From the NCBI GenBank assembly GCA_017506865.1, contig JAFCMP010000334.1, forward strand, positions 620,001 to 684,000: a DNA stretch of 64,000 nt, in the 5' to 3' direction. The notes beneath the pieces are model-generated. The model was given only the letters and a program-made list of their open reading frames with translations, did no database searches and was not told the DNA's origin. This document shows positions 1-44,981 of the stretch, piece after piece (position 1 is the stretch's first letter; each line of letters opens with the position of its first letter). Origin of the DNA: Tribonema minus (lineage: Eukaryota > Sar > Xanthophyceae > Tribonematales > Tribonemataceae). The translations under genes were made by a program, and so were the position numbers.

Positions 1-3000
1 GGAGTGACAGAAAACTAACCTGTATATAGACTGAAACGGCGTTTAGTTTCGCAGAATTGAGCGAAAATCTGCCGCTACCGCTGAGCGCTGCGCAGGTGTC
101 GCACGGCGTCGCACGCCCGTGGAACGAGAAAGAGACGCGGCTGGCGCGGCTGCGGCGCGCGCTAGAGAGGGAGGACGCCGACGGCATGGGCGTCACGCGC
201 GCCGCGCTGGGGCAGGTCAGTTGATGAGCGCTGCTGCCCCGACGCACAGTCGTTCACTGCAGCGCCCATCTATGTTGACGTGCCGACGATGATGCCGTGG
301 ATGGCGCGGTTGCAGTTCGCAGGCCGTTTTGATGCAGAGTCTCCGGGCAGCTCAGACGAGGAGCGCTGCTGCAGCGACGCGCTGTCGTATGCTGCAGCGC
401 GCTCAGTTAGTGCAGACATTGACAGTAAACGGGTGTCTGATTCCGGCAGCAGGCGTCACGCGCACCGCGCTGGGACAGGTCGGATGAGGAGCACTGCTGC
501 AGTGACGCACTGTCGTTTGTTGCAGCGCGCTCAGCCAGTGCAGACATTGACTGTAACCGGGTGCCTGGTTCCAGCAATGCGCATCGCGCGCGCCGCGCTG
601 GGGCAGGTCAGTCGAGGAGCGCTGCTGCCCCAACGCGCTGTCGTTTGCTGCAGCGCTGAGGCTAGTGTCGGCATGGACTTTTGAGCTCGCAGACGCCGCA
701 ACCTGCCTGAGAATACACGCATGGCTGTCGTCTGAATGTGTTCGTCCATGCATCTGGCCCTATCCGTAAGCGGGTGCCTCATTCCAGCAGCAGGCGCCAC
801 GCGCGCCGCGCTGGGACAGGTCAGATGAGGAGCGCTGCTGCCGCGATGCGCTGTCGTTTGCCGCAGCGCGCTCAGCCAGTGCAGACATTGACTGTAACCG
901 GGCGCCTAGTTTCAGCAACAGGCGTCACGCGCGCAGCACTGGGGCAGGTCAGGATGACGAGCGCTGCTGCCCTTCCGATGCGCAGTCATTCGCTGCAGCG
1001 TTGAGCTAGTGCAAGGCACGGACGTGCGAGCTCGCAGACGCCGTACCCTGCTTTTGAACACTCCCATGGTTGTCGTGATGAACGTGCTCATCGGCTGCAG
1101 GCCCGTTGTTGCAGGCACAGTTTGCCGCACCCTGTTAGATGCTGATTGTCGGTTTTGCGTTACGCAGGCGCTCAGCAGCGTGGGCGCGCACCTAAGAAGT
1201 GCACCCCATGAAAAGTGCGGCCACGTAAAAAGCGCACCCACGCAGAGTGAAATCTGCGGCTGGCACGTTTTTGCATGCACATCTTTCGTTACCACGATGA
1301 TGTTGATTATCACATTTGTTGGCTGCGGAGGCGCTCAGCGGCGTGGGCGTGCACCTCACGCGCGGCCCCATACAAAGTGCACCCGCGCAGAGTGAAATCT
1401 GCTGCAGGCGCGTTTTTACGTGCACGTTGCCATGATGATGATTGTTTTCACATCATTTGCTGCGCAGGCACTCGGCAGCGTGGGGCGTGCACCTCACGCG
1501 CGGCCCCGTATAAAGTGCACCCCACGCAAAATAAAACCTGCTGCAGGCGCGTTTGTGCAGGCACATTTTGCCTCACTGTATTTGACGTTGGTTTTTTGTT
1601 TCTTGCGTTGCACAGGCGCTCAGCAGCGTGGGCGTGCACCTCACGCGCGGCGAGCTGCGGCGCCTCGGGCACAGGTTCGACGCGCGCGAGGACGGCGTGC
1701 TCAGCACCAGAAGTTTCCTGAAATTTCTCGGCGGACAGTCAGGCGCGCCTCCTGACTCTGGTGAGTGCCACTGCGCACAGCATGATGCGATTCTTGACTC
1801 AGAACATTAGCACGCATGGCGAGAGGACGGCGTGCTCAGCCCAGCAGAAGTTTCCTGAAGTTTATCGGCGGTTGCTCTGGGAACCGCTCCGGAATCTGTT
1901 GAGCGGTGCACCCGACGCGTCGGATGTCAGCAACCTAAAGTATCGCACGGAACTTGCAGTTTCAGAGTGAGGGTTAGGGGTTGGGGGTTGGGGAAAGGTT
2001 TTGGGCAACTTCACTGAGGCTAACCCTAGCCACTGCTTTTCGGCAATTGATCATTCACACGCCGTCGCCTGCAATCCGGAGGCTGTGCGCAAGCTTGTTT
2101 AGCATGGTTGCATCGACCAGAACTTGTAGCGAGCGCAAACATTGCGAGAAGTCGACAATGCATTCGGACGACACTGTGCCTGCCTGGGCGCTACACAGTT
2201 TGCTGCCTTTGGCCACCCGCCCAGTGGGTTTCCAGCGGCTAAGGCAGTGAATTGGACGATGATGAACGTCTTTCTGTAGCAGATTGCCGGCGCTTCAATT
2301 TTCTGTCGCTGTAACTGCGCCGCTTGATTGATGACCACCGTTAGCATGCAGGAAGATTTGCGTGCGGGCAAGACACACAGCATATGTTTCACTTGGAATG
2401 GGCATCCTACCGTGGAAGTCAACTGCGTGCACACGATGGGAGTAGCCACTTTCTTCGACTTCATCTTCAACTGCCACAACAGGCCACGACCCATCTGCAG
2501 GCCCCCAGAGCACGGGTCAGCACGTGTTGAAGCAGACAAAGGCCCTGTGGAGTGCCTATGAGCACATGGTGAACTTGAAGAAGGCAGTAACTGTCGCCAC
2601 CCTGTTCAGCGATTGACTCTTGTTCAACCGCGCCTCTGCCGCTGTCACGTGCAGACGAAAATGGAGGCAGTGGCACCGAGACGCTGCACAGTTTGACGCG
2701 TGTAGCAGCAGATGCGGCCCTCTGTAGAGCGCTGTTCAGCACATACTGAAATGCAAAATAAGTGGAACCGGTGTCCCCCTACCCCCTTCAGCAATGCCCA
2801 TTGTTCAACTGCAGTCGCTCTGCGCCGCTGCTGCTGCCGCCGCGCCGCGCAGACGACGACGGAGGCGGTAGTGCTGAGGCGCTGCACAAGCTGGCGCGCG
2901 CTGCCGCCGCCGCGGGTGGGCTCTCCGGCCTGAAGCGCGCGCTGCGGCGCAGGGACGAAGGGGGAAGGGGGGCTCACGTGCTTGATCAGGCCACCTTCAG

Positions 3001-6000
3001 AAGGTAACAATAGTCATTAGGGCAGCCATCTGCTTATGAGGGGGGGCATGGGGCTCACGTCCTCGATCAGGCCACCTTCAGAAGGTAGTACTTCTAAGGT
3101 AGTACTTCTAATGCTTCATTTATGGTAGCCATCTGCTTGAATGAAATACAGAGATGGGGGGGGACAGGGGGCTCACGCCCCCGATCAGGCCACCTTCAGC
3201 AGGTAACTACTCCTACTTCGACGGTAGCGGTCTGCTTGAATGAAGTACAGGGACGAAGGGGGGCTGGGGGGCTAGCATGGTAGCCATCTGCTTGAATGAA
3301 ATACAGAGATCGGGGGGGACAGGGGGCTCACGCCCTCGATCAGGCCACCTTCAGCAGGTACCTACTCCTACTTCGACGGTAGCGGTCTGCTTGAATGAAG
3401 TACAGGGACGAAGGGGGGCTGGGGGGCTAGCATGGTAGCCATCTGCTTGAATGAAATACAGAGATGGGGGGGGACAGGGGGCTCACGCCCTCGATCAGGC
3501 CACCTTCAGCAGGTAACTACTCCTACTTCGACGGTAGCGGTCTGCTTGAATGAAGTAGGGGGGCGGGGGGGCTAGCATGGTAGCCATCTGCTTGAATGAA
3601 ATACAGAGATGGGGGGGGACAGGGGCTCACGCCCTCGATCAGGCCACCTTCAGCAGGTAACTACTCCTACTTCAACGGTAGCGGTCTGCTTGAATGAAGT
3701 ACAGGGACGAAGGGGGGCGGGGGGGCTCACGTCCTTGACCAGGCCACCTTTAGAAGGTAACAATACTGCTACTCCATTGCCTGACCCGCCATTGCTGCAA
3801 CTCGCCTCCTGAGACACACATGGTGGCCTCTGCGGCCAACGGCAGTACCGCGAGCGAAGGCATCGACAACGTACCACAAAGTCCGAGGCAATAATTGACG
3901 AGTGTAAAGCAGAAGAAGTACTTCAGTAATTATGGTAGCCATCTGCTTCAATGAAGTGCAGGGGCGAGGGGAAACGGGGGGCTCGTGTCCTTGACCAGGC
4001 CACCTTCAGAAGGCGACAATAGTAATTAGGGTAGCCATCTGCTTGAATGAAATGCAGGGGCGGGGGGCTCATGTCCTCGATCAGGCCACCTTCAGAAGGT
4101 GTTAGTTGTGAAGCAGTAGTGATTGTCGTTGTCATGCACTTCCATAAAGTACCTGAGATTGCAAGCCGTACTACCTTGCATGTGAGTTTTTGTGGAGTGG
4201 GGCTCACGTCCTTGATCAGGCCACCTTCAGAAGTGAACTCAGTGAACTCAACTTTGCAACCTGTAGAAAATGGGGTGTAGGGAAGGCATGCTGTTTACAT
4301 GTATCCTGGGGTGTGACGCTGCTAAACCGCCTGTACTTCGCAGTGTAGTGAATTCAGATCTTACATCGAGGAAATACGCTAATGTGACCATGGCTGATTG
4401 CTTGCGCCTGCATCCCGTTCGCTGAAACGCAGGCTGTCTGCCTGGCCCTCACAATGCACGTGTCAGCTGCCCAGTACTTCCTCACCTGCTGTAAGCAGTG
4501 GCACACAGGACAATGGAGCGTCCTGCCTTCATCGACATCTACTTAGCGCTGGCCTTTGTGTGTAGTGATGATGATAACACCCCGAGAGAACTCACTTTTC
4601 AACATCTCCAAGTCTTGTCTCACTTGTGTCAGATCTGCCACTGACATGATCTGTGAGCAGTGGCGCATCAGTGAAGCGTCCGGCTTTCTTTGACCTCCGG
4701 CACTTTATTTCGTGTGCACCTGTGCTGATTGCAACACAGATGCGTACTCAGTTTTCATCATCACTCCCTCAGTTTTCATCATCGCTTGCTGGTGTCTGCA
4801 CGACCTCCCGCAGTGCACTGGAGGGTCCTTATGGGATCCAGTTGCTAAGCTTTGATGATTGTTATAAATACACACATGAACTCATATTTCATCATCGCTC
4901 CCGGGTGTCTGCACTCCCTTCCACTCCGTCTGCAGGGTGCTCAAGACTTATGGGATCCAGTTGCCACATGTCTTTGTGTACGGTGATAATCAGTGTTGGG
5001 GTAAGGGTAAGGGTTAGGATGATGGCAACACTCGAGATAACTTATTTATCATCATAGCTCTCTGGTGTCCGCACAATGTGCCGCAGTGCGCTTGAGGATT
5101 ATGGGATCCAGTTGCCAAGGGCGGATCTGCGCGCTATCATGTTGCGCTTCGCGTCGCGGCAGGAGGGATCAGAGGGCTGTGTAAGGTGAGGCACCTGTTA
5201 TAACATCTTTCGGTTGACAGGCAGGGTTTGTTGTGGGGTTTAGGGTTGAAGTTGTAACTGAAAGATGGCTGCAATGTTGTTGGGCGGACCTGCGCGCCAT
5301 CATGTCGTGCTTCGCGTCGCGGCAGGAGGGTTCAGAGGGCTGCATCAGGTGAGGCACCGGGTGTTGCAGCTTATAGATGGCAGGCAGGTTTTGACGTGGG
5401 GCTTGGGGTTGAAGTTGTAAGATCTGCGTGCCGTCATGTTGCGCTTTGCGTCCCGACAGGAGGGATTGGAGGGCTGCTTAAAGGTGAGGCACCTGGTGTT
5501 GCAGCTTATACGATGGCAGGCAGGGTTTGAATTCGGGTTTAAGGTTGAAGTTGTAACTGTAAGATGCTGCAATGCTGTTGGAATATGCGCAGAAAGGCTA
5601 TGGGCACCTGCACTACTGTCTGCGACAAGCGGTCAAGAGGTTGTCATTGTTGGAATCATTTCGCACGCAGAATGTACTTGATAGCAGCCCGGCAGCGGGC
5701 GACGGCGCACGCATGCATCACGCCAAGAAGTAGGCGCCGCTGGTTTTGCTTCTTCGCAATCGCTTCCATGCCCGGATAGGTCGCTTGAGCGAGCCATGCG
5801 TGATAACCTACCGTATTTCTTGTTCCACTGTGCTGGCACCAAAAGGTGCTGCTGCCGCGCACCGGAGCGGCTGCGTGTCAGCGCTCAGACGACCCCGTGA
5901 CAACCCCTCAGACGTGTGTGCCTCTCCCCGCATAGCCTGCACATCGTCATCTTCAGCTTCGAGGCATCATGCCCATGATTGCTCACGCAACGCAGCCCTG

Positions 6001-9000
6001 AGGCAACGTGGGTGTCTTGAGGTGCCCACATGACACCGACCCTGAGCGATGCCCCGCAGCTGAGCAGTATTGACCCCCACCCCCACCCCCTCCCCAGCCC
6101 CTAGTATGTCCTGACAGCGTACTCTGAGTAATTGCGTTCTTTTCGCGTCTAAGGCTTCGCATCTGTACATCGCAGCAACACGACGAAGGCGTGCGCACCG
6201 CATTCACCGTCGCCGTGCCTCGACTGCCAATGGCGCAGATATGGTGATCTGCTGCTGGAGCTGGAGGCTGCAGCGGAGAGTCACAAGGTGCAGCAGGGGC
6301 ACGGGCGGCGGCGGCAGCGGTCCACTGCTCCGAGCAGCGGCAGCAGCGACAGCGAAGCTGGCAGTGCTCACAGGTACGTCCTACACTTGCCGTGTGTGCT
6401 GAAAGTGTGCACTGGCAGCACTCGCGGTGTGTTCTGCGCTGTGGCGGCGGGCGCGTGCGGCGCGATGCGTGCGGAGGCTCGTGTGGAGACTTTGGACAGC
6501 CCCTCCTGCGTTGGCTTCGCTCTCTCTCGATGCCGCGAGGGTTAGGGTTAGGGTCAGGGTTAGGATTAGGGTTGCATCAGGGTCACGGCTGCGTTTGGGT
6601 TAAGGTTAGGGCTAGGGGGCTAGGGCCGTGGCCGAACGCTAAATGCTCAGGCATCGCGGCGCAGATCAAATTCGAAACAGCACATTGTCTGAGACGTCCC
6701 GCGCGCTCACAGATGCACAGTGCACCAGATAACACGCATACCCGCGTGCAGTAAGCCGGCCAGAAGCAGCCCTCAGCGCCACGGCGCACACACGTCGCGG
6801 CCTCTCTCAAAGGCGCCTGAATCACTCAAGCGCGCGCGGCGCGCACTCACAGCTTCCCGCCGCGTCCGCGTCCGCTCTCGCTTCCCCGCAGAGCCGTGGC
6901 ACACCGAGGTTTGGAGTTAGGGCTAGGATTAGGGTTAGGGCCATGTCCCTGACCCTCAGAGCTCAGGCATCGCGTCGCAGATTCACTCGGAATCATCACC
7001 CCATCATCTGAGCCGTGCCGCGCGCTCAGAGATCCCCGCCGCATCGCCTCGCCCCGCTCTCACTTCCCTGCAGAGCTACGGCACACCGCACTCGCAGCGG
7101 CGGCCACGCCGATGCCGCCAAGCCGCGCGTCCACTTTGACGTGGGCGCCGGCAGCAGCGGTGGCACGCCTCAGCGTGCGGCGCACAAGGCGGCGCTGCCG
7201 CGGCGCGCCGGCGGCGCTGCGCGCGCGCGCGCGGCAGCGCGGCCCGAGCTGCAGCGCGCGTTTCCGGACGGCACGGTTGCTGCGCGGCACTGCTTTGAGG
7301 AGGTATGTGCGGTCGATGCGGTGTGAAGTTCGGAGAGGTATAACTTCAAGTAGTAAGTTGTCGCAGGCGCCGCAGCTTTCGAGGAACATGGAGGCGTCGT
7401 GAGGAAACGTCAGTTTCGACTCTGTTGCGACACGCAGAGAGGGGAAGCGGGTGGTTCACAGGGCAATAGTGTGGCAGCCGTTCGCTCTGGTGTCATCAGT
7501 CATCCGTGACAGCAACCGTCAGCGGATCGTGTGCTGCTTCACGCCGCATGTGCGCTTCTGCTCGAGAGCGCCTGCATCCCGCACAGATGTTTGCAGGTGG
7601 CACAAGGGCAAAGGGGAGGAGAGGGGCAGGTACATGGCTGCCTCAGATCTGCGTAAAGTCGCTGCCACGAGCTGCAGCGCCGCTTTCCTGGTGTCTCATT
7701 GTTCTGAGGCGCCACTGAAGTTGATAGGCACTTTTTGACTGGAAGCGCGCTGGTAGGCGCTTTTTGATTGAAGGAGCGCTCAGGCACCCCTCCCTCCTGA
7801 CCCTGTACCCCACCCTCCTGCAGCATGCTACCGCCCCTTGTCACCCACACGCCCCCCTGCTGTTAGGGTCAACCCTGACCCCACTTCTCAAACGACATTG
7901 TACAGCTCCGCACCGGCTGGGTACGCTGAGGTGCGCAGGCAATGTGCCTTGATCTAGGGTTAGGGCCGGCCCGAACCCGAACACCAAAATCACATTTGCA
8001 CTCTTCAGACTCTCGCGTCCGCTGTTTGCAACCGCAGCTGGACGCCACAGGGCTGCGCACGCTGATGTGCACAGGCACTGCAGCTAGCATTACCGTCAGG
8101 GCTTGCTACTGCCAAGCGGACACTTGTACACCTCACACGCCGCACGCTACGTCGACAAGGGTCGTTGCAGACGCACAACGCATGCATTCAGCGCGCCTCA
8201 CGCCACGCCCCGCGCCGATGCGACTACATGCCCGCAGGTGCGCGCATCCGCTCCAGCCATGGCACTTGCCCACTCATTTGCGGCTGTGGTCGGCAGCCTC
8301 CAACGAACGCAGATGGACGAGACGGGGTGGGGCGCGCTGACGTGGGAGCGCGTTCACGCAGCAGCGCCTGAGCGTTTACCATACAAAATCACATACTTCT
8401 GAGTCTTGCTGGTCGGTGCCAAGCAAGAGGTGATGCACATGCTGCTGCCTATCCCAGACTCTTCGCAAAAACCTCACACTCCTCAAGGCCTGTTCCCCTT
8501 GAATTCCTGCGTCTGCTGCTGGTCGCGACCGCAGATGGATGACACCGGACTCGGCACGCTGACGTGGAGCGCCTTCCTGCAGCAGCGCTCAGGCGCCGTC
8601 CCCCGCTCACTCTACAAACATCACATGTGTGCAGAGTCAGATGGACTCTTGCATCTGCCGCTGCTCGCGAACGCAGATGGACGACGCCGGGCTGGGCGCG
8701 CTGACGTGGAACGCATTCATGCAGCAGCGCTCACACGCCGCCCCCCTCCCTTACCCTACAGTAATCACATGTGCAGGTTTACATGGACTCTTGCGTCTGC
8801 CGCTGCTCATTAACCTTGCGTCTGCCACTGCTCGCGAGCGCAGATGGACGACTCCGGGCTCGGCACGCTGACGTGGAGCGCCTTCCGCGCGGGACTGCGC
8901 CGCCTGGGCGTACGCCTCCCGGAGGCAGCGCTGCTCGACCTCGCTGCGCCGCTAGACCGTGACGGCGACGGGCGCGTTGACTACGTGGCCTTCCTGGCGC

Positions 9001-11736: not shown

Positions 11737-12898
11737 TGGCGGCACCCACGTGCCTCAGTACGCAATGCGCTGCCAGGGATTGCTTGGCGGGAGACTGCGT
11801 GATGCGGTGCCGAGCCGTGCTGCGCCCCCCTAACCCTGACTCTAGGGGGATTAGGGCGGTGCAGCGCGCGCGCGCTCAGCGTCAGGGTCATGACGCTCGC
11901 CGCCATGCAGCTCTAGCGCTCTGTTGACATGTGCGCCGCAAGGCCACGCACCGAGTGTACCCCCTCACGTGAACACTGCGCTCCACATTTGGGTCCGGCG
12001 GGCTTCAACGTCTGATGTCATCGTGTGCAGCTAGCTGTGAATTGAAACGCCGTTGCCGCGACGCGCGGTGTTGCGCGTGGGCACGGCTTGCTGCAGCGCC
12101 TTAAGGGAATACCTTGAGGCACGCTTGTGCGTCTTCTTTAAAATAATACGCTTGGCAGTGCACTTGTGTACTGTGCTCTGGACCAGCCTTTGAGCATGTA
12201 GATTTCGGCGCATGTGCTTTGTGTGCAGTAATGACGACCTTTGCTTCGGATCCATGAGCTTGTCTTTCCCTGTTTGACATTTGCTGATCACATTTTCTGC
12301 CCTTGTCACCAATGGTGGTGTCTCGTGTGATATTTGTGCGCATTGATTGGAGGCTCACTCACTGCAAACATTCCCCATGACTGCAAGAACATCGACATGG
12401 CTCTCACAGTGCATTGCTCTTGTCCGTTGGTTGCTATGTGCGTTGCATCCCAATGAGTTCCCACATCCAAGCTGCAGCGCAAAGTTGTCGACAACTGCCG
12501 GCAGATCATGATTCATCGCAAGATCTTGTGGCACCACATTGTGTACCGAGAAGAAGGGCGAAGTCAGCAACGCAGTGCATCTGACTGGTGCCATGCAGCA
12601 GGAAGAATAAGAAAAAGACTCTTTGTAAAGTGAGAGGCGCGGCAAAGCAGGTATCCGTCATATTGCACAGTGACAAGAGGCCGATGATCGCCGTCTGCAG
12701 CTCCCGGCCATGTACAACGGCGTCGCACGCGCATACACCACCCCCAAGGCCGCACTGCGCGCCAGCCTTGCAAATGGTGGCATATGGCATGCAGGCACGC
12801 TCTCGACCGCCAAGTCCGCCGCGTTCAACTTGGGGGGCAAAAATACGCGATAACTACAACACACGCGCACGCCAGCCGTGGGCTGTATCAAAACGCTT
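11737..12898. other. Intergenic stretch between two convergent genes
   Basis: It contains the 3' flanks of the EF-hand gene and the TPR gene. Open frames of 60-100 codons exist on both strands at 12355-12900, at lower GC than the genes, but none shows a recognisable motif or splice chain. I see no RNA gene. Confidence 0.5.
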
Positions 12899-19096: not shown

Positions 19097-19493
19097 GCTC
19101 GACGCTGTCCAGGTATCAGGACACCTTCTCTTTTGCAAATTTGTGATGTTCTCGTTTCGTGACGGTTACGTTTGAGGGGGAAGAAAAAAGGCAAATCCCC
19201 CGACACTATCTGACATACCTACCTCATCATACCACCCCCGTCTGCAACTGTCGAGAGACCTTCTCTGGAGGCTCTCTTATCAGCCTACCTGTAAGCCTGC
19301 GTGCGCCAGCAAGCTGGTCACTTGCTGAAGCATCAGCAGGGAGGCTCTGCATCAGCGGGGACAGGGCGCGCGGCAGACACTGTTTCAGCGAGGACGAGGG
19401 GAGCAGCCGCTTTGGAGCTAGGCGAAGCAGCACACAGTCTGGGTGTAGAGCGAGTTTGCAGCTGCTGCTCAGCACAAAGGGGTCGTTGCAGCC
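19097..19493. promoter_or_regulatory. Shared 5' region of the divergent TPR and fusion genes
   Basis: About 400 bp separates the two start codons on opposite strands, so it probably holds both promoters. No clear TATA box is seen; this is inferred from gene arrangement only. Confidence 0.4.
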
Positions 19494-33705: not shown

Positions 33706-33741
<36 letters not shown>

Positions 33742-36700
33742 CACGAGTCATTTTTGAGCCAACCGTCAGCGTCCTGTGTGAACGCCACGCACGATCGACA
33801 ATGCGGTGCTGAATATTTTGGCTTGTTGCTGCCTCTCTGCTGCACATGCTCAGGGCAAGAGGCGCTCCGTGTGCGACTACGGCGGGCCTCTGCTCGACCC
33901 CGCCTTCGTCCTGGCAACCATCCTGGCTAGCCTGCGCGACAGCGAGACGGGCGAACTCTGCGTCGAGGTACGTACCGTATGTGTGAACGCAGGCCTTCAA
34001 AAGCTGCAGACAACGAGCACAATGGGGCACAGCTCTGCACCGCGTGAACTGGCGTGCACGGCAAATCCCGGCGAACAGTGTGCAGGGAGGGTTGAGGGTA
34101 GGGTTTGAGATCCTCGGCGCGGTGCGCAACATTCCAACTCCACCTGGTGATGAACTTCAACCTCAATTTTGGTGCCTCACGACAGCAGGTCGCGAAGTGT
34201 ACCATGCGGTGTGGCAAAGGTGCCGTGTGTGCGAGCATGGCCCGAGTGAATGACGGCAGCAAGAATTTCATGCCGCCGAGGCTACCGCGCATATCACCTT
34301 TAACTTTTTTTTACATCCCAACGTCATCTTATGCGCGTTTCGTGTCTGTGGCTTGCAGGGCGTGAAGGGGGCACCCGACAAGGTCACCAGCGAGAAGCTC
34401 AGGTGAGGGTAGGGGTCAATCTATCATTAGACCATGAGCATTTCGAAAGCTTAATGTAGGCTCAAGTCTGCAATTTCTCGCCACATACTCCTAAGTCTCA
34501 GGTACAACTTTATTTGGTCTACAGATGCGTCTCTCGTCGCGCACTTTTCAAACTCAAATTGCTACTGCTTTTCTTCACTACTCCGATGTACTTCACTGTC
34601 AAGCGATTTCCTGAGCGCTGATACTGGTAGCGTCGCGTGCCGCTCTTGCGGTGTCAGTGCTCATTGTGCTGCCCACAAAAGCTCGCCGCGGCGGTGCCAA
34701 AATCGGTGAGGGCGGATGCTGTGCTGCGAGGGCGGATGCTGTGCTGCGAAAGCGAAACACTTGCTAAGCGCTGACCTCCGGTGACCGCTTGTCACGATGC
34801 GCGCCGCTGCCGCAGGCACATCCACTTCGGCGAGCACCACCTGCGCCCGCACACCGGCTACAAGCCCGAGATCCCTTGCGCAAAGGAGGTGAGCGGCGCA
34901 CATAATGTCCTTTAGCGTTGGGGTTAGGGTTCCAAACTTGGGGCTAGGTTTGGGTTTAGCGTGTCTGATGCACGGCAGGGTATTGTAGTCTTGTCAAGCC
35001 CGAGATCCCTTGCGCGGTGGAGGTGAGCGGCACGCGTATACCCTGGCACCAGGGTTAGGGCTGAGATCGGCATCATCAACAGGGTCAGTAGGCACTACAT
35101 TGATACATCAATAAACCGCACTCTAGGCACTTCCAGTGGCGGCTGTAATGTGTGCCACTAAGTCTGCAAAAGCACACAACAAGGTTGATGAAGCGCCCTG
35201 GAGGCTGCTCGTTGAAGCGGTGCCGCGGTGCGCGAAGCTCTATTCGCCTGGGCGTCCGCGAAACTGGCGGAGCGAACTGGCGCAGTGCCTGAGCACACGC
35301 CGTGCTGGCGGACTGTGTGGCGGGGAATGCACGACAGCAGTCGCGCACGTCGTAACGCGCGCGCACGTAGCGCCTGTCGGTGTACGCGCCAGCAGCACCC
35401 TGCTTTAGTGCGCAATCGGACAGCGGCGTGTGCCGGCGTGCTCTTTGGAACTTTTGAGAATACATCTGCTACGCATTCCACGCAAGTGCGTACGGCATCA
35501 CGATGGCTTACACGCCATCACTCCCCTTTCACGGCCCACCTCACGCCCTGTGGGCCTACATATGCGACAAGCCCAAATCATAATTCGACCCCAAATCCTT
35601 GCCCTTGCCCCTGCACTTGGCACCCTCAGCCCTACACTCCGCAATAAACTTTGACCCTAACCCGTTGTGATCCCCTTTGCTGCGCCACTCAGTCCTACGT
35701 CCGCGATGGCGTGGTGGTCGGCGCCACCATTGCTGAGCAGCTGACACTGCACTCTGCGATAACCCCTAACCCTAGGTTTGACCCTTACCCTAACCCCAGT
35801 GCTCCCCTTCGCTGAGCCCCTCAGTCCTACGTCCGCGACGGCGTGGTGGTGGGCGCCACCATCGCTGAGCAGCTGACGCTGCTGCCTGCGGTCACCGTCA
35901 CGTCGCTGGCCATGTCTTCCGGCAAGGTGCGTGTGGCGGCGCGTGGCAGCTCTATGCGCAGCAGTGCTCAGTATGTAGGGCGCACACTGGACGTAAATTG
36001 AAGTATCCTTTTTTGTTGTACTTTTTGTAATATAGGGAGTGCATCTTTAGACGTCTGAACTCAACAATCCGCTCTACGCATCAAAGGGTACTTTGAGCGG
36101 TGCGCTATCGCTTGATGCTGCGTGCCTGTCGAATGCATGGCGGCAGCCTAAACCTAACCCTAACCCTACCCCAAACCCTCGTTGAGCTCCGTCCATGACC
36201 TCCGGCAAGGTGCGTCATCGGGCAACAGTACAACACGCAGGCTGCGTTATGCGTCGCCACCTGCAATGAATGCTGCGCCACGCCAGCTGCATCAGATGTT
36301 GTGGTACTGACGGTATGGGGAAACAGTATCGGATTCAACCAGGGCTGACAGGGGTGGGGGGGTGGGGCAGGGGGGTTGTGCACGCAGATGCCAGAGGCCC
36401 CAGTGCCTGGGCCAGCTCAGTTCTGGCTGTTTCTCTGGCTGTACGCCTGTTTTGCGGTGCCGCATTCTCGTGATGAAATAATCGGCACCAGCATCCGCCG
36501 GGTGCCACATGTGCTCACGAGATTATCGCCAGCCACGGTGGCCCCTGGCATGCCGACTCTGCACGTCTTTACTCTCTTGACCCTACGACCAGCACGGCGG
36601 TAGTGAGCAGACACATCGAGAGATGATGGCCTTGTTGTAGATCTACCAACTGCAAGAAGTATGCTCCCCCCCCCCCCCCCCCGCCCCCACTCACCCCCCT

Positions 36701-39700
36701 TGCCATTCCCTATTCAACTGTGCACATAGCCTGACTCACTGCCCTAACCCCCCCCACCCCCCGCCCACCCGCATGCCCGCTCCACTTTTCACCCCCCTCC
36801 GCGACTTCGCACACAGGAGAATGGGCCCGTGTCCGCCGAGTTTGCGCTGTGGGCATCGGCATCGCTGCACCTGTGCCTCGCGCCGGAGCAGGACGTCGGA
36901 CAGACCATCAAGGCGCTCAAGGCGCACATCAACGCGGTGAGCAGTGACAAACCCTGGCCTTTAGGGTTACCGGTAGGCGTAATTTCTGCTTGGCTGATTC
37001 ATTAACTACGCTTTGTGCAATGCGCTCAAGGCGCACATCAACGCGGTGAGCAGGCACAAACCCTGGCCTTAGGGCAACCGGTAGGCGTAGTCGTGCTTTG
37101 GCTGAGCGGCAACAAACCCTGGCCTTAGGGTTGCTGGCAGGCGCAGTTGTGCTTGGCTGATTCGTCGGCGAGCTGCGACAAATGCCGGCCTTAGGGCTTC
37201 CGGTAGGCATCATTTTTTTGCTGATTCGTCAGCTACGCTGTGTGCAAGGCTCTCAAGGCGCACATCAACGCGGTGAGCAACCGCAAACCCTGGCCTTGGG
37301 GTTACCAGTTCAGTAGGCGTACTGGCTGATCAACTATGCTCTGTTCGATGCAGCAAGAGCGCTCTATTAGGCCACACAGCTTCATCTTCATCTTCGACAG
37401 TCGGTTTCTGCTCATCAGTCGCTTGCAGAGGCTGGAGATGCAAAATGTGCAGCCGCACCGCAGCGGGGTAGACAGTGAGCGCTAACGCTACCAGTGCAAT
37501 TCCCATCTTCAACTTCTTCCGCGCGCGTGACGCCCCCCCCCCCCCCCCCCCCCCCCATGCGCAGGCCGTCCCCTTTGGCGTGGAGGTCGAGTACTCCAAC
37601 ATCCGCGGGCACAGGGGGTGGAGCACGCACCCAAACGCGGCCATTGTGGAAGCGCTCAGTGCCGCGCGCGGACTCGCAGAGTGCCGCCGCGGCGCCGTCG
37701 CCGTCGGCTCGCCCAACTTCCAGCCGCTGCCGTGCGCGTTCGCGGCCGCGCTGCCGAGCGCCAAGGTGAGATTCACCGAAGCAAACTCTCATCTCGTGAT
37801 TGTTTGCAGCGCACGCTTGGTGCGGTGCCGAGCGCGAAGGTGAGTCGCTGATGAACCAAATTTATCGTCATTGTTTGCAGCGCTCTTGTGCTGCGCGGCG
37901 GCGGTGGGCAGTGTGCGCGCGGGGCTAGATGTGAAGTTGCGTGAGCGTGCTTGCCGACGTCGCCGCGGTGTCCGGATGTCGCATCGACTGCGCTCGCGGT
38001 GCCGCATGACCGTACGTACTCGTGCATCGTACTGCATACTACAAACTTTGTCACGGAAGCTCTCAACGGCGCGCTTGGCCTTGCCGAGTGATGCCGTGGC
38101 GCCGTCGCAATCGGCTCGCTCGACTTCCAGCCGCTGCCGTGCGCGTTTGCGGCCGCGCTGCCGAGCGCCAAGGTGCGTCGTCCGTCGGGGTGACTCTCCT
38201 TTGTTTTGACGTGACTCGCGTTTACGTGAAGCTGACTGCGCGAGCATGTGCTGCCTTGAGATGGGCGCCTTTCCGCTTCTGTTTCAGCACTACAGTGTTT
38301 TATTCTCGTTGTTCATGTCTATGAATGCTCATCATGGCGAGGCCTTGTTTGATTATAATCAATCAGTATAAATACTGGCAGGCGCCAGTGGTGTCCGATG
38401 CAAGTGGCGTCGGCGCTGGTGCACGTGCGGAGGGGGGTCATCAGCCGACAAAAGAGATGGGGGTGCACATGGGGCGCCGATGCCCCCCCCCCCCCCCTCC
38501 CCCTTCCGCCTTTTCGAGTCAGCCACCTCTGCTGTAAACACCGCGCATGCGCCATCTGCGCTTCTGACAATGCCAAGTGAGCGCTTCAGTGCCTCAACAC
38601 ACTAAGCACGCATCAAATTGAAAAAACACATTCTATCCGTAGGTGATTCTGCGATGCGCATGCCAGGCTCTGAAGAAACTTCAACCACACACCTCCTGAC
38701 AACCTTAAGCGTACGCTCCGCAATCACGACGCAGGTGGTGACGTTCGGCGTCCACGACGCCGACGCGCATGCCGCCGCCGCCAACGAGAGCGCGCGCGCG
38801 GAGGACATCAGCGACTACGTTCGGACGACGATAGAGCTCCTGCACTACCTCGCGCACGGACCGCCCAAGCCAGAGGAGCCGCTGTCGCCGAGCGCTGCTG
38901 CGGACGGCGGCGGCGACGCGCGCACCGCGTACGCCGCCAAGCACATGGACGACCTCGAGCGGCGGCAGGCGGCCAACAAGGTGAGAGCGTGCGCTTGCTC
39001 GCGTGATGCGACGGAGATTGCTGTGGCAGGTGCCGCTGACGTTGGGTGGTTGCCTGCGGCGATGCGCACAGGTGCGTGCGCTGTCGAGCACATGGACGAC
39101 CTCGAGCGGCGGCAGGCGGCCAACAAGGTGAGGGATGTGGTGTTGCTGCAGCAGCGGCGACCGCGGTTGCCGGTGGAAGGCGCTGGCCGCTGACCGCACC
39201 TTGTCACCTAGAGCTCTACGATCTTCTAATTGTCGCCGTGAGGGCGCGCTTGTGCATGATGTGACCGAGACTTCTCTGGTAGGTGCCGCTGACGTTGACT
39301 CTTGCTGGTTGCCTGCGGCGATGCGCATAGGCGCGTGCTCATGGGATGATCTGCAGCGGCAGCAAGCGGCCAGCAAAGGGAGGGCGCCAGTTGCCTCAGT
39401 ACTTGGATAGGTTGTGAAGTAGTGGCTGGTTGATCGCCCGCTGGCGGTAGGCAGACCCCGCACGGAAACGTCACAGCTGCTCTCGCGCGCATTGTTCATG
39501 CACGCGGGCACACGCATGACGGCAGCAGTCTTCACCCGCCGGCAATTCAATGCTGCTTTTCACGGCTTACCCGTCAACCGCCGACCGACGCACACCCGCC
39601 GCTATCAGCGACCGCGCAACTGATGCTATCCCCACAACGTGCGCTCCCGCACCACGCCCCCGCCTCTTTTAGTTCGATCACACCCACCTCACGCACCACG

Positions 39701-42700
39701 CTGAAAACCGCCCTCCCCCCCGCCCCCTTCCCCCCCCCCCTTCCCCCCCCGCCAGATGCGCGCCGGCGGCAGCCTGTCGCCGGGCGCGCTGCTGCCGCCG
39801 CCGCCGCTCTCCGCACACACGCGCGACCGCTCCAACAGCGGCCACCGCCTGTCGCTGCAGCACGGCACAGGGCTCACGCCCGTTTCCGTCTCGCACCCGC
39901 CATCGCCGACCACCTTCTTCGGCGGGCCGTCGCCGCTGCCGCCGGGCTCGCTGTCCATGGGCAACTCGCCCATGGCGGGCGCGGCGGCGGCAGCGGACGC
40001 GCGCCGCAGCAGCGGGCGCATGGCGTACATGGAGGGCGTCGTGAAGGGGCCGCCGCCGCCGCTGCCGCCGCGCTCGCACGCGCGCGGCGGCAGCATCCTC
40101 GACCCGTCCATGCTGCCCGCCAAGATCCTGGACGAGGTGAGCGCCGCTGCTGCTGCTGCCGCTGCTGCTGCGCTGCTGCCGCTGCCGCTGCTGCTGATGC
40201 GCTGCTGCCGCTGCTGCTGCGCTGCTGCCGCCGCGCCGCTGCCGCTGCCGCTGCGCGGCGTCGGCAGCCCTGGTAGCGCAAAGGCGACAGCAGGTTGCGT
40301 TCTTGGTGTGCGTTTGTGTGCGCGGCCGCGGCAGCTTCCCTGGGCCCCAGCCACGCTAATTGCGCGAGTCGACCTTGATGAAGGCTACTTCCGTCGCTGA
40401 TGGCGTATTGCTGCACAAAAGACTCCTTGAGCCTGTCTCATCACCGCCATGACCCCCCCCGCTCCCCTCTCACACATACTGGCATGTCACATGTTGCAGA
40501 TGGTTACGCAGGCCAACAAATGCTCGTAAAGAAATGGCATCTCAAGCTCAACCTCATCAACACCATGACCCCCTCCCTCCCTCTCACATACTTGCGCGTC
40601 ACACGTTGCAGATCACCCTCTCACATGCTGACACGGCACACGTTGTAGATCAACACGGTGTGCGCGGACCCCCGCGGGCTACGCGCTGCGCGAGCTCAAC
40701 CTCATGAATGCCATGACCCCCCCTTCCCCTCCTCACATGCTCGCACGTCACACGGTTGCAGATCAACACGGTGCGCGCGGACCCTGACCCTAACCCTAAC
40801 CCTAACCCTGGCACGTCACATATTGCAGATCAACACGGTGCGCGCCGACCCCGCGGGCTACGCGCTGCGCGAGCTGGAGCCGCTGCTCCACTGCTATGGC
40901 GCCGGCGGCGTGTACACGCCCCCCGGCGGCGGCCAGCCGCGCGTCACATCCGAGGGTGCAAAGTGAGTATGTATGTATGGCAATCAGTACTTCAAGTACT
41001 TTCAGTATGCAGTTCTGAGTCAAGTGAGTGGGCGTCTGGGCTCGCTCACAAGCAGGCGCTTACGTAGTTTATGGCACTTGATGACTTCGTCGACGCCCAG
41101 TGGCGGCAAACCGCGCGCCACGTCCGAGGGCATCAAGTGAGTGCAGCATGCATGTACGGCAATAGGTATTTAGAGTTCCGAGCCGGAACCGTCTAAGACG
41201 GTTCCGGCTCGTCTAGACGGAGAAGACGAAAAGACGGAATGTCCACACACCGTCTTTTCCGTCTTTTTTCAAAACAGCTTTTATGGCTTTTATAACACTC
41301 CAGCAGGCATGTGGCTCACGTACGATGCCAAGGCAAGAGTGCTGATGCACCGCTACTACACGCTGCTTGCATATTTCACTTTTTCGGTCTAATTCACTTC
41401 AAGTTTGAAGTGCAAGTGTGTGTGGTCGTTACCGTTATCCCAGGAGTGTTGTGCTTTGCTGTGTAGGTTCCCACGAAAGCTGTGTTGCCCCTACACGAGT
41501 GATCAGTTGGTTCACGGTTAAAATGAAGTAGGTGAGACGGCGTGGCAAGGCCGTCTTCAACCGTCTTTTCCGTCTTAGACGGAAAAGACGGTCGAAGACG
41601 GTTAGACGGAAAAGACGGTCGAAGACGGTACAGGCCCGTCTAGACGGCTCAGACGGACGGCGGGCTTAGCCGTCTGCAATAAAGACGGTTTGTGGGACCG
41701 GCTCGGAACTCTAGTATTTAGTACTGAGTCGACTGAGTGCGCATTTGGGCTCGGTCACACGCGGGCAGTGACATAGTCTGCGGCGCTTCATAACTTTACA
41801 ACTTCGCGAAGCCCAGTGGCGGCCAGCTGCGCGTCACGTCCGAGGGCGTCAAGTGAGTATGTATGTACGGTATTAGGTACTTCAAGTATTCAGTTCGGAG
41901 CCGAGCGAGTGCGCGTCTGGGCTCGCTCACACGCAGGCGTTTACGTAGTTTATGGCACTTGATGACTTCGTCGACGCCCAGTGGCGGCAAACCGCGCGAC
42001 ACGTCCGAGGGCGTCAAGTGAGTGCAGTATGTAGGTATGGTAATAGGTATGTAGTGTACTGCGTCAAGTGCGTGTGCATCTGGGCTCGGTCGCACGCAGG
42101 CAATTCCGTGGTCTGCTGCGCTTCATGATTGGACTTCAGGTTTGCAAGTTCCCACAGCTGTACGTGAGTGTGTAGCCATAACAACTCCAAATGGAGCCAC
42201 TATTCGCCCTGTGTCTGCATGAACATGAAACTCTGCGGAACGCTGCCACGCCGCGCAAATAAGAATCATCTTAACACAGCGATTACCTCCCTGCCATGCT
42301 GCCTGTCAGCTCTGATTCTGACCCCATTTTTCGATTTTCAACCCTTCAATCTTGTAACTTCAACTCTCCAGGGCGCTGGAGGACGCGCTGCTGGTGCTCA
42401 AGAGGACGCCGCCCGCGCCACCGCTCAGCAGAATCCCTGAGATGGACAAGGCATCGCAGGACCACGCCTCGGACCTCGGAGAAACGGGGCAGGTATGGAC
42501 ATCAGCAATGTACCTATTCACAAGTACTTTTTTCTTTGTCGTTTCTCGCTCAGGGCGAAAAAAAGCCCAGACAGTGGATGTCCATGGACTTGCAACCAGA
42601 ATCTGCACGCGTCTTTGTGAACACCTTGAAAGTGTCTCAATGCGCATCGCCAATCACTTTTGAACACTGCTGTACCGTGCATGTTGTCATGTTCTTGCGA

Positions 42701-44981
42701 GTACCACAAGCACCACCTCGTTAAAGACTGAGCGCACAGCAAGTCACTGACGCACTCGTGCCGCGCGTCTGTCTGTCCTCCTGCACTCCTTTGACAGACG
42801 TCCCACGCCGGCAGCGACGGATCCAAGACGGCTGACCGCATCAACCGCTACGGCCAGGCAAGTGCCGCTTACAGCAGCGTGCGGCAGGCGTTGCCACTGC
42901 ATGTGTGCGCGCATGGCCAATGGCGTACCTGGCTAGAAGTTGCCAGCATGCCTGATTGCTAGCGCTCGCCTGCACTGTACAATGTGCAGGTGTCTTGTGA
43001 CGGCCTCTCACCACTGGCATGCGTTTGCAGCACTCAGCTGGTGATCGAGCCACGTTAGATCTCCAACACGCAGCAACAACACACAGCCGTCACACAGTGC
43101 CGCGACCCCCCTGAGCTCGCCCTTGCAACCCCCCCCCCCCTTAGTCAGGGCTGCTGACCCCCCCTTCACCGCCCCCCCCTTCCCTGTCGCTCATGTCGTC
43201 CCGCAGTTCTTCCAGGTGGCCGGCGAGGTCATCTCCGTGTACGAGTCGTCCGCCGTTGGCATTGTGTGTCAGATGCTCATCAACGACGGCGAGAGGACGC
43301 GCCAGGTGATCATGAGATAAAACCTAAGTAGGGCTAGGGAGCCCTGAGCAGGGCGAGGGTAAAGGTCAGGCTCATACATTGGACATCAGCGTTGGGTTTG
43401 TATCAGATGCTTAGCAACGACGGCAAGAGGGCGCGCAGGTGAGATGAGCCCTAAGTAGGGCTAGGGAGCCCTAAGTAGGGCCAAAGTAAAGGTTGAGGCT
43501 TGCACATTCGACATCAGGGTTGGATTCATTTATCAGAATGAAGCCAAGCATGAGAAGATCATCAACGACGGCGAGAGGACGCGCCAGGTGAGATCAGCCC
43601 TAAGTAGGGGTAGGGCAACGGTCGCGGCTCACAGGTTCAGACGTTTACAAAAGATTGAGTTTGTGACAGGACCGCGAGACGACGCCTGGCTTGAGACGAG
43701 CTTTTCGGTCATTGTTCAACCCCCCTTTCTCACTCAGAATCGCATGTGCAAACTCAGCAGCTCTTCAAGCACGGTCCGTGCAGCAGCGCACCAATAGCGC
43801 AGCCACACTGCTCCGTATTCTGCTTGTGTCAGTTGCAGCGGTGACAGCAATCGTACATACCAATCCTCGGTGGTACGATGTCACCTTGATCTCACCTTGG
43901 AACCTCTCGTGCGTGCATGCTCCCCCCCCCCCCTTCCCCCCTCCAGAACCGCAAGAGCATCATTGGGCAGCACTTCAAGGTGTGCGGCGTCGCAACGGCG
44001 CCGCACCCGAGCGTCGGCACCGTTGGCGTCGTCACGCTAGCGGGCGGCTGGGGCCCCAAGTCTCTGGAACGCGAAGCGCTGGTATCGGTGGAGCCGGGCG
44101 AGGACCCGTCGCCCGAGTTCGAGCGCGTTTTGGAGAGCATCCCCGTGCCTCAGGTGCGTCTACACTGCTGCTGCTGCTGCTGCTGCTGGTGCAGCTGCTG
44201 CTGCTGCTGCGACATGACCTACGGCGGTTTACATCAAGGTGCCTGCTTGGGCCTCTGACATGCAAGAAAAGACCCAAGTCGCTGTACCGTGAGGCGCTTG
44301 TGTCGGTGGACCCGGGCGAGGCGCCGTTGCCGGAATTGGAGCGCGTCCCCGAGAGCACTCCACACGAGATGCGCTCACGGATGCTTTGATGCTTGATTGA
44401 TGCTGCGCAGTTCGCAAGCAATATGCTTTGCAGAAGGCCTCTCAACAAGGCAGCCTTGAACTCTGGCTTGCGCTTTGGCTTCAAATCTGAATGCGGCACG
44501 TGCATTACCGCAAGTACCGGACATGACCAACACTTTAACGCATGGCTGAGTTCTGTGCATTGGGCTCGCCTCGGATGACTCTCCCAGATGCCGTTGAGCC
44601 TTGAGCACTACCCCCGCTCCGGCCTCAACTCCACGCCAGCGCGAACTGTGCTAATCACGGATGAGTCTTGCGCGTGCTTCAGTCGCTCTCCGCCCCGCCC
44701 TCACACTTCCCGCGCTGCGCACGTGCGAGAGCAGATGACCTTGTTCGTGTTGTTGGCCTTCAATTATTCTCCGCCCCACCCTCACACTTCCCTGCGCCGC
44801 GCCAAACCCTAACCCTAAGCCCTGCTCGCGCGCGCCCCCTTCCCCCCAGGTGACGGACGAGGTGCGCAAGGCCATCGCCGCGGGCCTCGCGGTGGAGCTC
44901 GACTACAAGCCCGGCGAGGTCAAGCTCACCGTCAAGCAGCGCGACGGCAGCGCGTCGCTGCTGTCGTGCCAGTGGGGCTGA
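19494..44981 (+). CDS. CH-CH / degenerate M20 peptidase / Pro-rich / CAP fusion protein, 27 exons, 1171 aa
   Basis: Exons: 19494-19622, 22508-22630, 23019-23180, 24077-24236, 25152-25216, 26113-26176, 27356-27552, 28182-28252, 28696-28786, 29584-29670, 30648-30727, 31447-31544, 32588-32742, 33854-33967, 34359-34402, 34816-34888, 35825-35926, 36817-36936, 37565-37765, 38735-38980, 39756-40136, 40829-40962, 42372-42492, 42798-42857, 43207-43305, 43947-44153, 44850-44981 (TGA). All 26 junctions are in phase (19 phase 0, 3 phase 1, 4 phase 2). The ATG has a good context (gccATGG) and lies just before the CH domain. Domain order is CH1 (about 31-138), CH2 (139-234), M20-like (265-755), Pro/Ser-rich (795-910) and CAP (912-1110). 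There is no signal peptide or membrane segment. The CH pair predicts actin binding; the M20 part has lost most metal ligands. Exon 7 carries both the CH2 end and the M20 start, and exon 21 carries both linker and CAP start, which supports one protein. The weakest join is exon 20 to 21, because exon 21 begins with ATG. Confidence 0.85.
21065..21517 (+). CDS. Possible nested 150-aa ORF in intron 1 of the fusion gene
   Basis: An open frame beginning MIEMMCTSRQRPFVL and ending in TAA. It is less GC-rich than the surrounding exons and has a balanced, protein-like composition (for example CADFLRSLGLVPSGACV and SIIHMLEKLHQRLMV). I do not recognise the product, and no echo or splice pattern links it to the host gene. 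It could be a nested gene, a remnant of a mobile element or a chance frame. Confidence 0.3.
   Translation: MIEMMCTSRQRPFVLAHTSRVEVYKAVSKILYVRLCIVESKVHVQHLDGSSNAYLQCADFLRSLGLVPSGACVLRASQSGESLCMSDDVYFPDRSIIHMLEKLHQRLMVAGMIEFWPHGSVRFNHFVSSVHMLSCDSQPQFLVTVSVTAA
21900..22560 (+). repeat. Echo array: copies of the start of CH exon 22508-22630
   Basis: Head copies (VAVRLLKVDNLF coding) with acceptors begin at 21925, 22105 and 22312 before the true exon at 22508, spaced 180-207 bp. A more decayed copy lies near 21715-21775. Each carries 60-90 nt of exon-like sequence including the DG of the CH motif. Confidence 0.88.
23250..24076 (+). repeat. Tail echo of exon 23019-23180 and six head echoes of exon 24077-24236
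   Basis: A 70-nt copy of the CH1 end (LGMIWSLIVFFMAK coding) lies at 23260-23328. Copies of the next exon's acceptor and DLGES head follow, with AG near 23732, 23790, 23832, 23885, 23933 and 24025. They are interleaved with ccctaaccctaa repeats. The 23933 copy extends through about 60 nt of the exon. Confidence 0.87.
24237..24840 (+). repeat. Tail echoes of CH2 exon 24077-24236
   Basis: Copies with donors near 24397, 24470 and 24593 follow, then two eroded ones near 24715 and 24818. The first spans about 100 nt with only a few changes (INVHNFTDSLADGKAFMAI coding). Lengths shrink with distance from the true exon. Confidence 0.88.
25417..25459. repeat. Second inverted telomere-like junction
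   Basis: Imperfect ggttagggttag units are followed at about 25443 by ctaaccctaaccctaa in the opposite sense. It lies in the intron between exons 5 and 6 of the fusion gene. Confidence 0.8.
26970..27990 (+). repeat. Head and tail echoes of exon 27356-27552
   Basis: Head copies (DKKANIT coding) begin near 26991 and 27188; the second extends about 80 nt. Tail copies (LDYAAAHPG to QAAAAK coding) have donors near 27687, 27850 and 27986, and share a GTATGT donor that differs from the true GTGCGT. Confidence 0.85.
29302..29407. repeat. Interstitial telomere-like array with variant block
   Basis: About 17 hexamer units: TTAGGG first, then a homogeneous block of TTTGGG variants (about 29348-29383), then mixed units. 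It is in an intron, far from any chromosome end visible here. Confidence 0.92.
29735..30100 (+). repeat. Tail echoes of exon 29584-29670
   Basis: Copies of the AKAAFQDK coding end plus gtgagtgactcg occur near 29735-29775, 29822-29880, 29990-30025 and 30068-30095. One has lost its donor (caatgagtgac). Confidence 0.82.
30828..31020 (+). repeat. Tail echoes of exon 30648-30727
   Basis: Two copies of the PQCKDLPCTL coding end with GTGAGC donors lie near 30868 and 31012. They are separated by a repeated intron segment containing gtgcagctgagcatcaccgc. Confidence 0.85.
31970..32600 (+). repeat. Echo array: head copies of M20-like exon 32588-32742
   Basis: Five copies of the acceptor and head (DVGVPDYVVVSDP coding) lie near 32010, 32127, 32250, 32316 and 32460 before the true exon at 32588, about 120-130 bp apart. 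The 32127 copy has a deletion that breaks the frame; the 32250 copy keeps only a few bases. Confidence 0.87.
33180..33860 (+). repeat. Echo array: head copies of exon 33854-33967
   Basis: Copies of ctcag plus GKRRSVCDYG coding head begin near 33193, 33336, 33543 and 33696 before the true acceptor at 33853. The fourth runs into a run of more than 25 C. Confidence 0.8.
33707..33741. repeat. Long poly-C tract
   Basis: About 30 C in a row upstream of exon 33854. Other runs lie at 16029-16052, 36667-36682, 37533-37556 and 38485-38497. Several sit just before acceptors or inside echo copies. Confidence 0.9.
35690..35760 (+). repeat. Head echo of exon 35825-35926
   Basis: A copy of about 60 nt of the exon start (SYVRDGVVVGATIAEQLTL coding) with its own ctcag acceptor lies 130 bp before the true exon. 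A short copy of the exon end with a donor lies at 36193-36212. Confidence 0.87.
36937..37320 (+). repeat. Tail echoes of exon 36817-36936 with repeated intron segment
   Basis: The KALKAHINA coding end plus gtgagc is repeated near 37050 and 37275. The adjacent intron text (aaaccctggccttagggtta) appears five times between 36948 and 37320. Confidence 0.85.
37790..38176 (+). repeat. Tail echoes of exon 37565-37765
   Basis: A short copy lies near 37815-37842. A long copy of about 120 nt lies at 38050-38172 (SARSTSSR region in another frame), ending in a working-looking donor GTGCGT. Indels have broken its frame relative to the exon. Confidence 0.83.
39085..39385 (+). repeat. Tail echoes of exon 38735-38980
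   Basis: A near-identical copy of about 45 nt of the exon end (HMDDLERRQAANK coding) plus a GTGAGG donor lies at 39090-39135. An eroded one lies near 39340-39385 in which the donor is gone. Confidence 0.87.
40600..42030 (+). repeat. Head and tail echoes of CAP exon 40829-40962
   Basis: Head copies (INTVRADP coding) begin near 40650 and 40761, with shorter ones near 40500 and 40611. Tail copies (GGxxRVTSEGVK coding plus gtgagt) end near 41137, 41852 and 42018, accompanied by a repeated intron block (cttgatgacttcgtcgacgc). Confidence 0.85.
41172..41712. mobile_element. MITE-like non-autonomous DNA element
   Basis: A 15-bp perfect inverted terminal repeat, agagttccgagccgg, lies at 41172-41186 with its reverse complement at 41698-41712. 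The flanks share tatttag, but the exact target-site duplication is ambiguous (TA or TAG possible). The interior has no open frame of note and is rich in agacggaaaagacggt-type repeats, some inverted. It sits inside the intron after CAP exon 22, within an echo-bearing segment, so it is younger than at least part of that array. Superfamily not recognised. Confidence 0.75.
42858..43206 (+). other. GC-AG intron between CAP exons 24 and 25
   Basis: The donor is cag|gcaagt, a GC donor with otherwise strong consensus. The acceptor is the C-rich gtcccgcag at 43206. It is the only non-GT donor in the three large gene models. Confidence 0.75.
43400..43620 (+). repeat. Tail echoes of CAP exon 43207-43305
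   Basis: Copies of the INDGERTRQ coding end with gtgagat donors lie near 43438 and 43590, followed by the repeated cctaagtaggg intron text. Confidence 0.83.

Follow-up and report, generated by a model that had tools for sequence, protein, structure and literature searches.

Can an intron lengthen by repeated duplication of the exon edges that border it? This question is raised by a stretch of 64,000 nucleotides from the genome of the yellow-green alga Tribonema minus (Xanthophyceae; GenBank assembly GCA_017506865.1, contig JAFCMP010000334.1, positions 620,001 to 684,000), which we refer to as the window and on which all coordinates are counted unless another piece of DNA is named. Many of its introns contain diverged direct copies of the neighboring exon edge together with the splice site. 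We term these copies echoes and distinguish donor-side echoes (an exon end with its GT) from acceptor-side echoes (an exon start with its AG). To our knowledge, lengthening of introns without transposons has rarely been observed directly.

Exon models were derived from a custom 3-periodic coding model, which predicted 83 exons, and from reading of the sequence by eye. Since the spliced models matched the Pfam families CH (E 4.5e-26), TPR_12 (E 3.5e-20) and Peptidase_M20 (E 1.1e-4, slightly under the curated cut-off), and since the spliced CH-gene model could be aligned with utrophin residues 61-266 across five introns (E 2e-31), these models are not arbitrary. One window gene is 99% identical to JKP88DRAFT_261135 of Tribonema minus. 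Pfam scans of whole frames, in which stops were replaced by X, returned two CH matches only, and in these scans no Pfam family was matched by the gene at the beginning of the window, which looked EF-hand-like on reading; the M20-like model used as a homolog query gave no match at E 0.001. The initial annotation had reported echoes from three large unrelated genes. Their occurrence in several genes was borne out by our data, but what it took as the third gene is probably two genes or more, among them a tandem-CH gene and one of M20 peptidase-like type. Three related genes on the minus strand (49253-50239, 59154-60167 and 63266-63959), F-box/ankyrin-like by eye, occupy the far end of the window; the DNA of their aligned stretches is 68-77% alike.

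On the plus strand, beginning with the first gene, the exon whose end is at 215 has five donor-side echoes (345-1013), and three acceptor-side echoes precede the exon 1616-1734 (1155-1504). The exon ending near 3003 is followed by nine donor-side echoes, counted by eye, at 3050-4239; this is the largest group, so that the group size of up to about ten proposed originally comes down slightly. Within it, an array at 3122-3727 consists of four 155-bp units that are about 93-94% alike, with one donor echo per unit by eye, and is an echo turned minisatellite. Further along, acceptor-side echoes are located upstream of the exon 8844-8990 (four, at 8019-8718) and of the exon starting at 10274 (two, at 10015-10167). 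An array of copies at 10471-11223 extends between the models 10274-10394 and 11178-11236, and the true exon edge at its far end is ambiguous. In the TPR gene on the minus strand, the exon 14895-15107 possesses an almost abutting donor-side echo (14734-14868) and two acceptor-side echoes (15293-15745); the exon 16486-16593 has three donor-side echoes (16185-16420) and one acceptor-side echo (16732-16785); and the exon 17632-17880 has two donor-side echoes (17310-17493), with an acceptor-side tandem unit of about 210 bp upstream of it (18027-18237).

The remaining echoes are again encoded on the plus strand. In the CH gene, acceptor-side echoes lie upstream of the exons 22508-22630 (three, at 21907-22369; this exon is part of the spliced model aligned with utrophin), 24077-24236 (four, at 23726-23987), 25152-25216 (one, at 25006-25045) and 27356-27549 (two, at 26981-27270). 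Donor-side echoes follow the exons 23019-23180 (one, 96% identical, at 23261-23333), 24077-24236 (five, at 24300-24828) and 27356-27549 (two, at 27597-27860). The M20-like gene carries donor-side echoes of the exons 29584-29670 (three, at 29743-30024), 30648-30727 (two, at 30828-31016), 31447-31544 (one, at 31653-31690), 32588-32742 (one, at 32793-32839), 36817-36936 (two, at 37018-37292), 37565-37765 (two, at 37822-38175) and 38735-38980 (two, at 39056-39384). Its acceptor-side echoes are found upstream of the exons 32588-32742 (four, at 32008-32500), 33854-33967 (three, or two at a stricter cut, at 33179-33571) and 35825-35926 (one, at 35673-35764). The exon 40829-40959 is flanked by acceptor-side echoes upstream (40480-40784) and by three donor-side echoes downstream (41096-42040), and local direct repeats to which no exon could be assigned occur at 43265-43615. 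Echoes had been ascribed to most introns; this has to be qualified to the extent that three of the 15 window introns examined were free of local repeats at the threshold used. Tandem Repeats Finder (TRF) placed 54 overlapping rows in the window, several of them on echo arrays, and head-to-tail similar units are present among them.

Other features of the same DNA deserve mention. The intron-rich part of the window contains 11 tracts of the TTAGGG/CCCTAA type with at least two exact units (at 6542, 6929, 9318, 17240, 23764, 23991, 25448, 27328, 29306, 40788 and 44807), compared to 0.006 expected from base composition, and there are none at 44.9-64 kb. Since none of the six contig ends that we examined carried a telomere array, these tracts cannot be tied to the telomere of this alga. 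Palindromic TTGAAGT/ACTTCAA motifs were seen by eye just past donors and within introns (24237-24262, 24474-24493, 23379-23410 and 22805-22866), the last of these arrays also being a TRF row. A GT directly after the acceptor AG begins nine of 26 internal exons, compared to about 1/16 by chance; these exons start at 22508, 38735, 17880 (minus strand) and 16593 (minus strand) in the window and at 2008, 3486, 4651, 6428 and 7050 in a separate piece of the genome (L029) that is described below.

The initial annotation had stated that copies of exon starts lie only upstream of their exon and copies of exon ends only downstream, and that equal numbers of copies on the wrong side or strand would speak against its view. 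A self-comparison of the window revealed 165 same-strand pairs less than 3 kb apart, compared to eight inverted pairs, all eight of which are stretches that match their own reverse complement. We then probed the edges of 31 exon models with sequences of up to 45 bp, searching 1.5 kb to each side. Exon ends yielded 41 copies downstream (19 of 31 edges) versus five upstream (2 of 30 edges), and exon starts yielded 36 copies upstream (15 of 30 edges) versus two downstream (2 of 31 edges). Only four inverted copies were detected with all probes, three of them at middle-of-exon probes; the mid-exon probes of 14 exons found six copies downstream and none upstream. Four of the seven wrong-side copies, and four of the 36 start copies, stem from a single 59-bp model (11178-11236) that is ambiguous and could be a copy of the exon edge of 10274-10394 rather than an exon. 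Background was low: shuffled flanks gave four plus-strand matches in 141 trials, and 47 probes gave two matches against unrelated pieces of the window. The view of the initial annotation was therefore not refuted by its own test; the seven wrong-side copies count against the duplication account developed below.

The 31 models had been hand-picked from the 83 predictions, with some echo-like predictions left out, which biases the outcome towards the side rule; furthermore, a few exon bounds were set by eye, and the position 38914 as used in this test is no donor. We therefore repeated the edge test without hand-picking, and with published exon bounds. For the former, every prediction of at least 45 bp with a score of at least 12 was used on both strands of 20 other 10-kb pieces, a non-random sample in which several pieces surround CH-domain matches and two lie next to the window. 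These pieces contained 48 end copies and 37 start copies on the right side versus 15 ends upstream and seven starts downstream; the resulting 22 wrong-side copies again have to be counted against duplication. Inverted copies numbered 46, of which 20 were found at a single probe in one piece (L012). Counts vary slightly between our analyses because exon bounds were refined along the way (for instance, 1734 for 1760, 8990 for 9027, and 38735-38980 for 38710-38914).

Published bounds were available for the CCT-gamma gene (piece L029), whose nine exons splice letter for letter to the deposited T. minus protein. Its introns hold 15 copies of exon ends, all downstream, and four copies of exon starts, all upstream, which amounts to 19 copies on the right side, none on the wrong side and none inverted. 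Echoes are present at six of its 16 edges (two of eight starts and four of eight ends), with as many as eight end copies within one intron. For the exon encoding residues 182-257, most translated echoes stop at its last or start at its first residue. Near the echo-bearing junctions, the CCT-gamma protein differs from five relatives by gaps of at most one residue; the echoes are therefore outside the protein. Matches to protein profiles led to further loci. By eye, eight nested or nearly nested pairs of profile matches (at least 20 overlapping profile positions, within 1.2 kb) were recognized, all with the copy on the right side: four in CCT genes, at least three in kinesin genes (122 of 191 candidates) and at least one in myosin genes (65 of 139 candidates). 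A CCT pair (C279; profile positions 24-87 and 57-103) that overlaps but is not nested was kept outside these eight, and CH matches were excluded since CH domains occur as pairs. Echoes are patchy between genes, because a CCT gene in piece L030 is almost free of them, whereas the predicted exons of the CCT gene in piece L031 have many, and 10 of the 20 sampled pieces contain no more than three direct pairs within 1 kb; L029 and L031 were known beforehand to contain overlapping profile matches, L030 was not.

Spacing between copies had been described as often 120-220 bp. We found it to lie mostly at 75-220 bp, with a median of 148 bp; the most frequent spacing, 125-150 bp, accounts for 16 of 54 events. 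Seven of the nearest pairs are arranged head to tail, with gaps of 2, -1, 8, 2, 14, 6 and 9 bp, and others have 50-110 bp between the copies. Homology reaches 11-118 bp into the exon side and 0-290 bp into the intron side, the reach of the search being 300 bp. In four of 20 high-identity echoes, the homology on the intron side ends no more than 7 bp from the junction, and in two of these four, 56-75 bp of unrelated sequence separates the copies. Such an ending at the junction is not explained by one simple tandem duplication. Most copies are 4-32% different over the aligned stretch, are truncated differently and follow the orientation of the gene.

To follow the decay of the echoes, we compared 49 donor and 42 acceptor echoes of the window and of other loci, with clear edges and at least 6 bp on either side of the junction. 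Differences amounted to 0.096 (donor) and 0.119 (acceptor) on the exon side and to 0.170 and 0.216, respectively, on the intron side, which is about 1.8-fold higher. This is the pattern to be expected if the true exon is under selection and all other copies drift. The donor GT is altered in 9 of 98 bases, close to the rate on the exon side (Fisher p 0.35 versus the flanks). The acceptor AG is altered in only 3 of 84 bases, compared to 204 of 1227 bases in the flanks (p 0.0005 by Fisher test) and 75 of 630 exon-side bases. This retention of AG is stronger than expected and counts against plain drift. In 38 echo alignments with a clear frame, all nine indels shift the frame, and differences at the three codon positions are 0.070, 0.052 and 0.152, an excess at third positions that is somewhat higher than a simple neutral expectation. 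In-frame splicing would be open to just three of the 60 echo sites considered. Among 37 donor echoes, GT is kept in 32 and in-frame, stop-free use would be possible in one; among 23 acceptor echoes, two are usable and AG is kept in all 23, a figure raised by alignments forced to end on a match. The nearest echo resembles the exon more than the farthest does in eight of 12 groups, with three groups showing the opposite and one a tie, so that no clear gradient of age emerges. With the faster change on the intron side, the loss of GT (9 of 98) and the frame-shifting indels (9 of 9), the view of the initial annotation that the copies are nearly neutral is supported.

The anatomy of the copies, their strand, side and spacing, the pattern of substitutions and the recurrence in other genes are direct observations, and in the light of these data we consider it probable that introns grow via repeated short tandem duplications of genomic DNA. 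Short tandem duplications, mostly spaced by 75-220 bp, would recur in introns. If a donor lies within the duplicated stretch, splicing would continue from the copy attached to the whole exon, and the truncated exon end with its GT would become part of the intron downstream. Where one spans an acceptor, the last copy would be used and the first would be left to the intron upstream. The copies that are not needed would then drift almost neutrally and be open to further duplication. Truncated donor copies are expected downstream, and acceptor copies upstream, because one end of such a duplication sits in the exon and the other in the intron. Tandem duplication across junctions, as proposed initially, accounts for strand, sidedness, truncation and spacing, and the near-abutting arrangement of the seven nearest pairs fits it as well. 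We infer that introns lengthened in this way over time, with the true sites out-competing the decoys. The underlying lesion is most likely ordinary slippage or end-joining that is tolerated within introns; the filler between some copies and the telomere-like tracts would be compatible with the repair of breaks. We also considered sidedness as a sign of function and rejected this notion, as it is forced by the geometry of tandem duplication. The unusual feature is the density of echoes; the side rule requires no further cause.

Duplications are not evenly distributed. Local repeats cover 0.50, 0.40 and 0.30 of three intron-rich stretches of the window, compared to 0.012 of the intron-poor part at 44-64 kb. 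When all loci are taken together and labeled roughly by the gene finder, cover is 0.149 in introns, 0.165 in predicted exons and 0.048 in intergenic DNA. The length of 25 introns is not correlated with their repeat fraction (rho 0.19, p 0.37); like the unclear age gradient and the third-position excess, this speaks against the duplication account.

Duplication may conceivably be targeted to the junctions themselves, with a chromatin edge, an RNA-DNA hybrid or splicing-linked repair starting breaks or slippage at exon-intron boundaries. The CH, M20-like, TPR and CCT-gamma genes contributed 23 introns with 51 non-redundant events, 25 of which span a junction; with rising class of identity, the fractions are 8/19, 9/20 and 8/12, compared to uniform expectations of 0.23, 0.16 and 0.11, and in an earlier set 26 of 54 events spanned a junction against 0.17 expected. 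Some homologies do end at the splice site. However, exons evolve slowly, and pairs that contain exon sequence can therefore be detected for approximately twice the time. We nevertheless rejected the idea that exon conservation explains the junction excess entirely, since by estimate it approximately doubles the expectation and leaves part of the excess over. When exons are masked, repeat cover does not peak directly at the junction: it is 0.25-0.30 in the first 150 bp, 0.36 at 150-300 bp and 0.14-0.23 past 400 bp. Since the introns tested were in part picked for having echoes, junction targeting is a lead rather than a result, and we regard it as rather unlikely. The same doubt applies to the bolder proposal of a ratchet in T. 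minus, in which boundary-seeded duplication, each event copying a splice junction, sparing the copy in use and adding a decoy and about 140 bp, would drive intron growth genome-wide without transposons.

The other readings of the echoes appear far less probable. That they serve as alternative or recursive splice sites under selection would fit the retained AG (3 of 84 bases changed; 23 of 23 sites, where short alignments favor this outcome) and the internal exons that start with GT after AG (9 of 26), but the donor GT is lost about as fast as the exon side changes, 57 of the 60 echo sites suffer from a frame break, a stop or the lack of the dinucleotide, all nine indels shift the frame, and the echoes are absent from the deposited CCT-gamma protein; we therefore judge selected function to be very unlikely. 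Still less credible is an assembly artifact, either stacked unresolved haplotypes or read errors. The assembly does consist of 554 contigs and, in the passages of one report considered here, was judged inadequate for identifying extensive gene clusters (PMC12459048), which we count in favor of an artifact. Yet most copies differ by 4-32%, are truncated at varied points and are oriented with the gene, and repeats are nearly absent from the intron-poor 44-64 kb. Introner-like or other mobile elements, to which the recurrent palindromic TTGAAGT/ACTTCAA motifs (by eye) and TTAGGG tracts might point, are equally improbable as the source of the echoes, given that each copy corresponds to its adjoining exon and that, within the window, direct matches separated by more than 3 kb consist of simple or telomere-like sequence or connect the related genes located at 49-64 kb.

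Collectively, the echoes suggest a simple route of intron growth by tandem duplication. Several genes have preserved candidate steps of lengthening, with their orientation; given relatives and RNA, lengthening rates, the competition between splice sites and the decay of decoys should therefore be measurable. There is also a practical aspect: gene finders may mispredict echo-bearing genes, and the simple finder used here called several echoes exons.

Intronic minisatellites are built from tandem units that measure from tens up to hundreds of bp. Echo arrays such as that at 3122-3727 resemble them in their tandem units, but many echo units are anchored on junctions and include a coding edge. Tandem exon duplication gives rise to mutually exclusive exons. 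It shares with the echoes the presence of same-direction exon sequence nearby; the echoes, however, mostly comprise one edge, have indels that shift the frame, and decay. A full exon copy, open in frame and bearing a splice site at either end, would be required for a duplicated exon, but we found one edge only, bar the ambiguous short model (here 11178-11230). None of the literature matches listed describes a pattern of exon echoes in the abstract beginnings and passages considered. For the related brown alga Ectocarpus, long introns (median of 524 bp on autosomes) are reported in the passages considered of a paper that examines their transposons (PMC12477816). Introners, in the part of the source considered, are a mass source of intronic sequence in some eukaryotes, with copies of an element at many sites (PMC9860276). 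Unlike them, echoes are local and different at every junction; because the copies are junction-specific, introners are a poor local fit. Moreover, intron ends do not coincide with an element, the echoes being situated inside larger introns, and self-comparison of the window found no non-simple intron sequence shared between its genes.

A closer relationship exists to duplications within genes. As cited in a passage of PMC4974935, internal gene duplication is frequent across eukaryotes and linked to the creation of introns (Gao and Lynch, 2009), whereas the echoes would extend introns that already exist. Tandem genomic duplication is, according to the passages considered here, an accepted route of intron gain, as in the Rogers model and the RdRp case of potato (PMC4974935; PMC3443670). 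The echoes are akin to it in that a short duplication within the gene may take in sequence of exon, intron and splice site, some of it turning non-coding, and in that copies lie adjacent to their source, seven nearest pairs nearly abutting and the others gapped. They differ from the cases in these passages by being many per gene and by occurring in unrelated genes. In intron gain by tandem genomic duplication, a splice site of the duplicate is used and a new intron results; in the echoes, the old sites would remain in use and the existing intron would be extended, as illustrated by CCT-gamma, whose published exons skip all echoes. The lesion behind the echoes appears to be of the same kind as in tandem genomic duplication, yet it seems to lengthen introns instead of making them.
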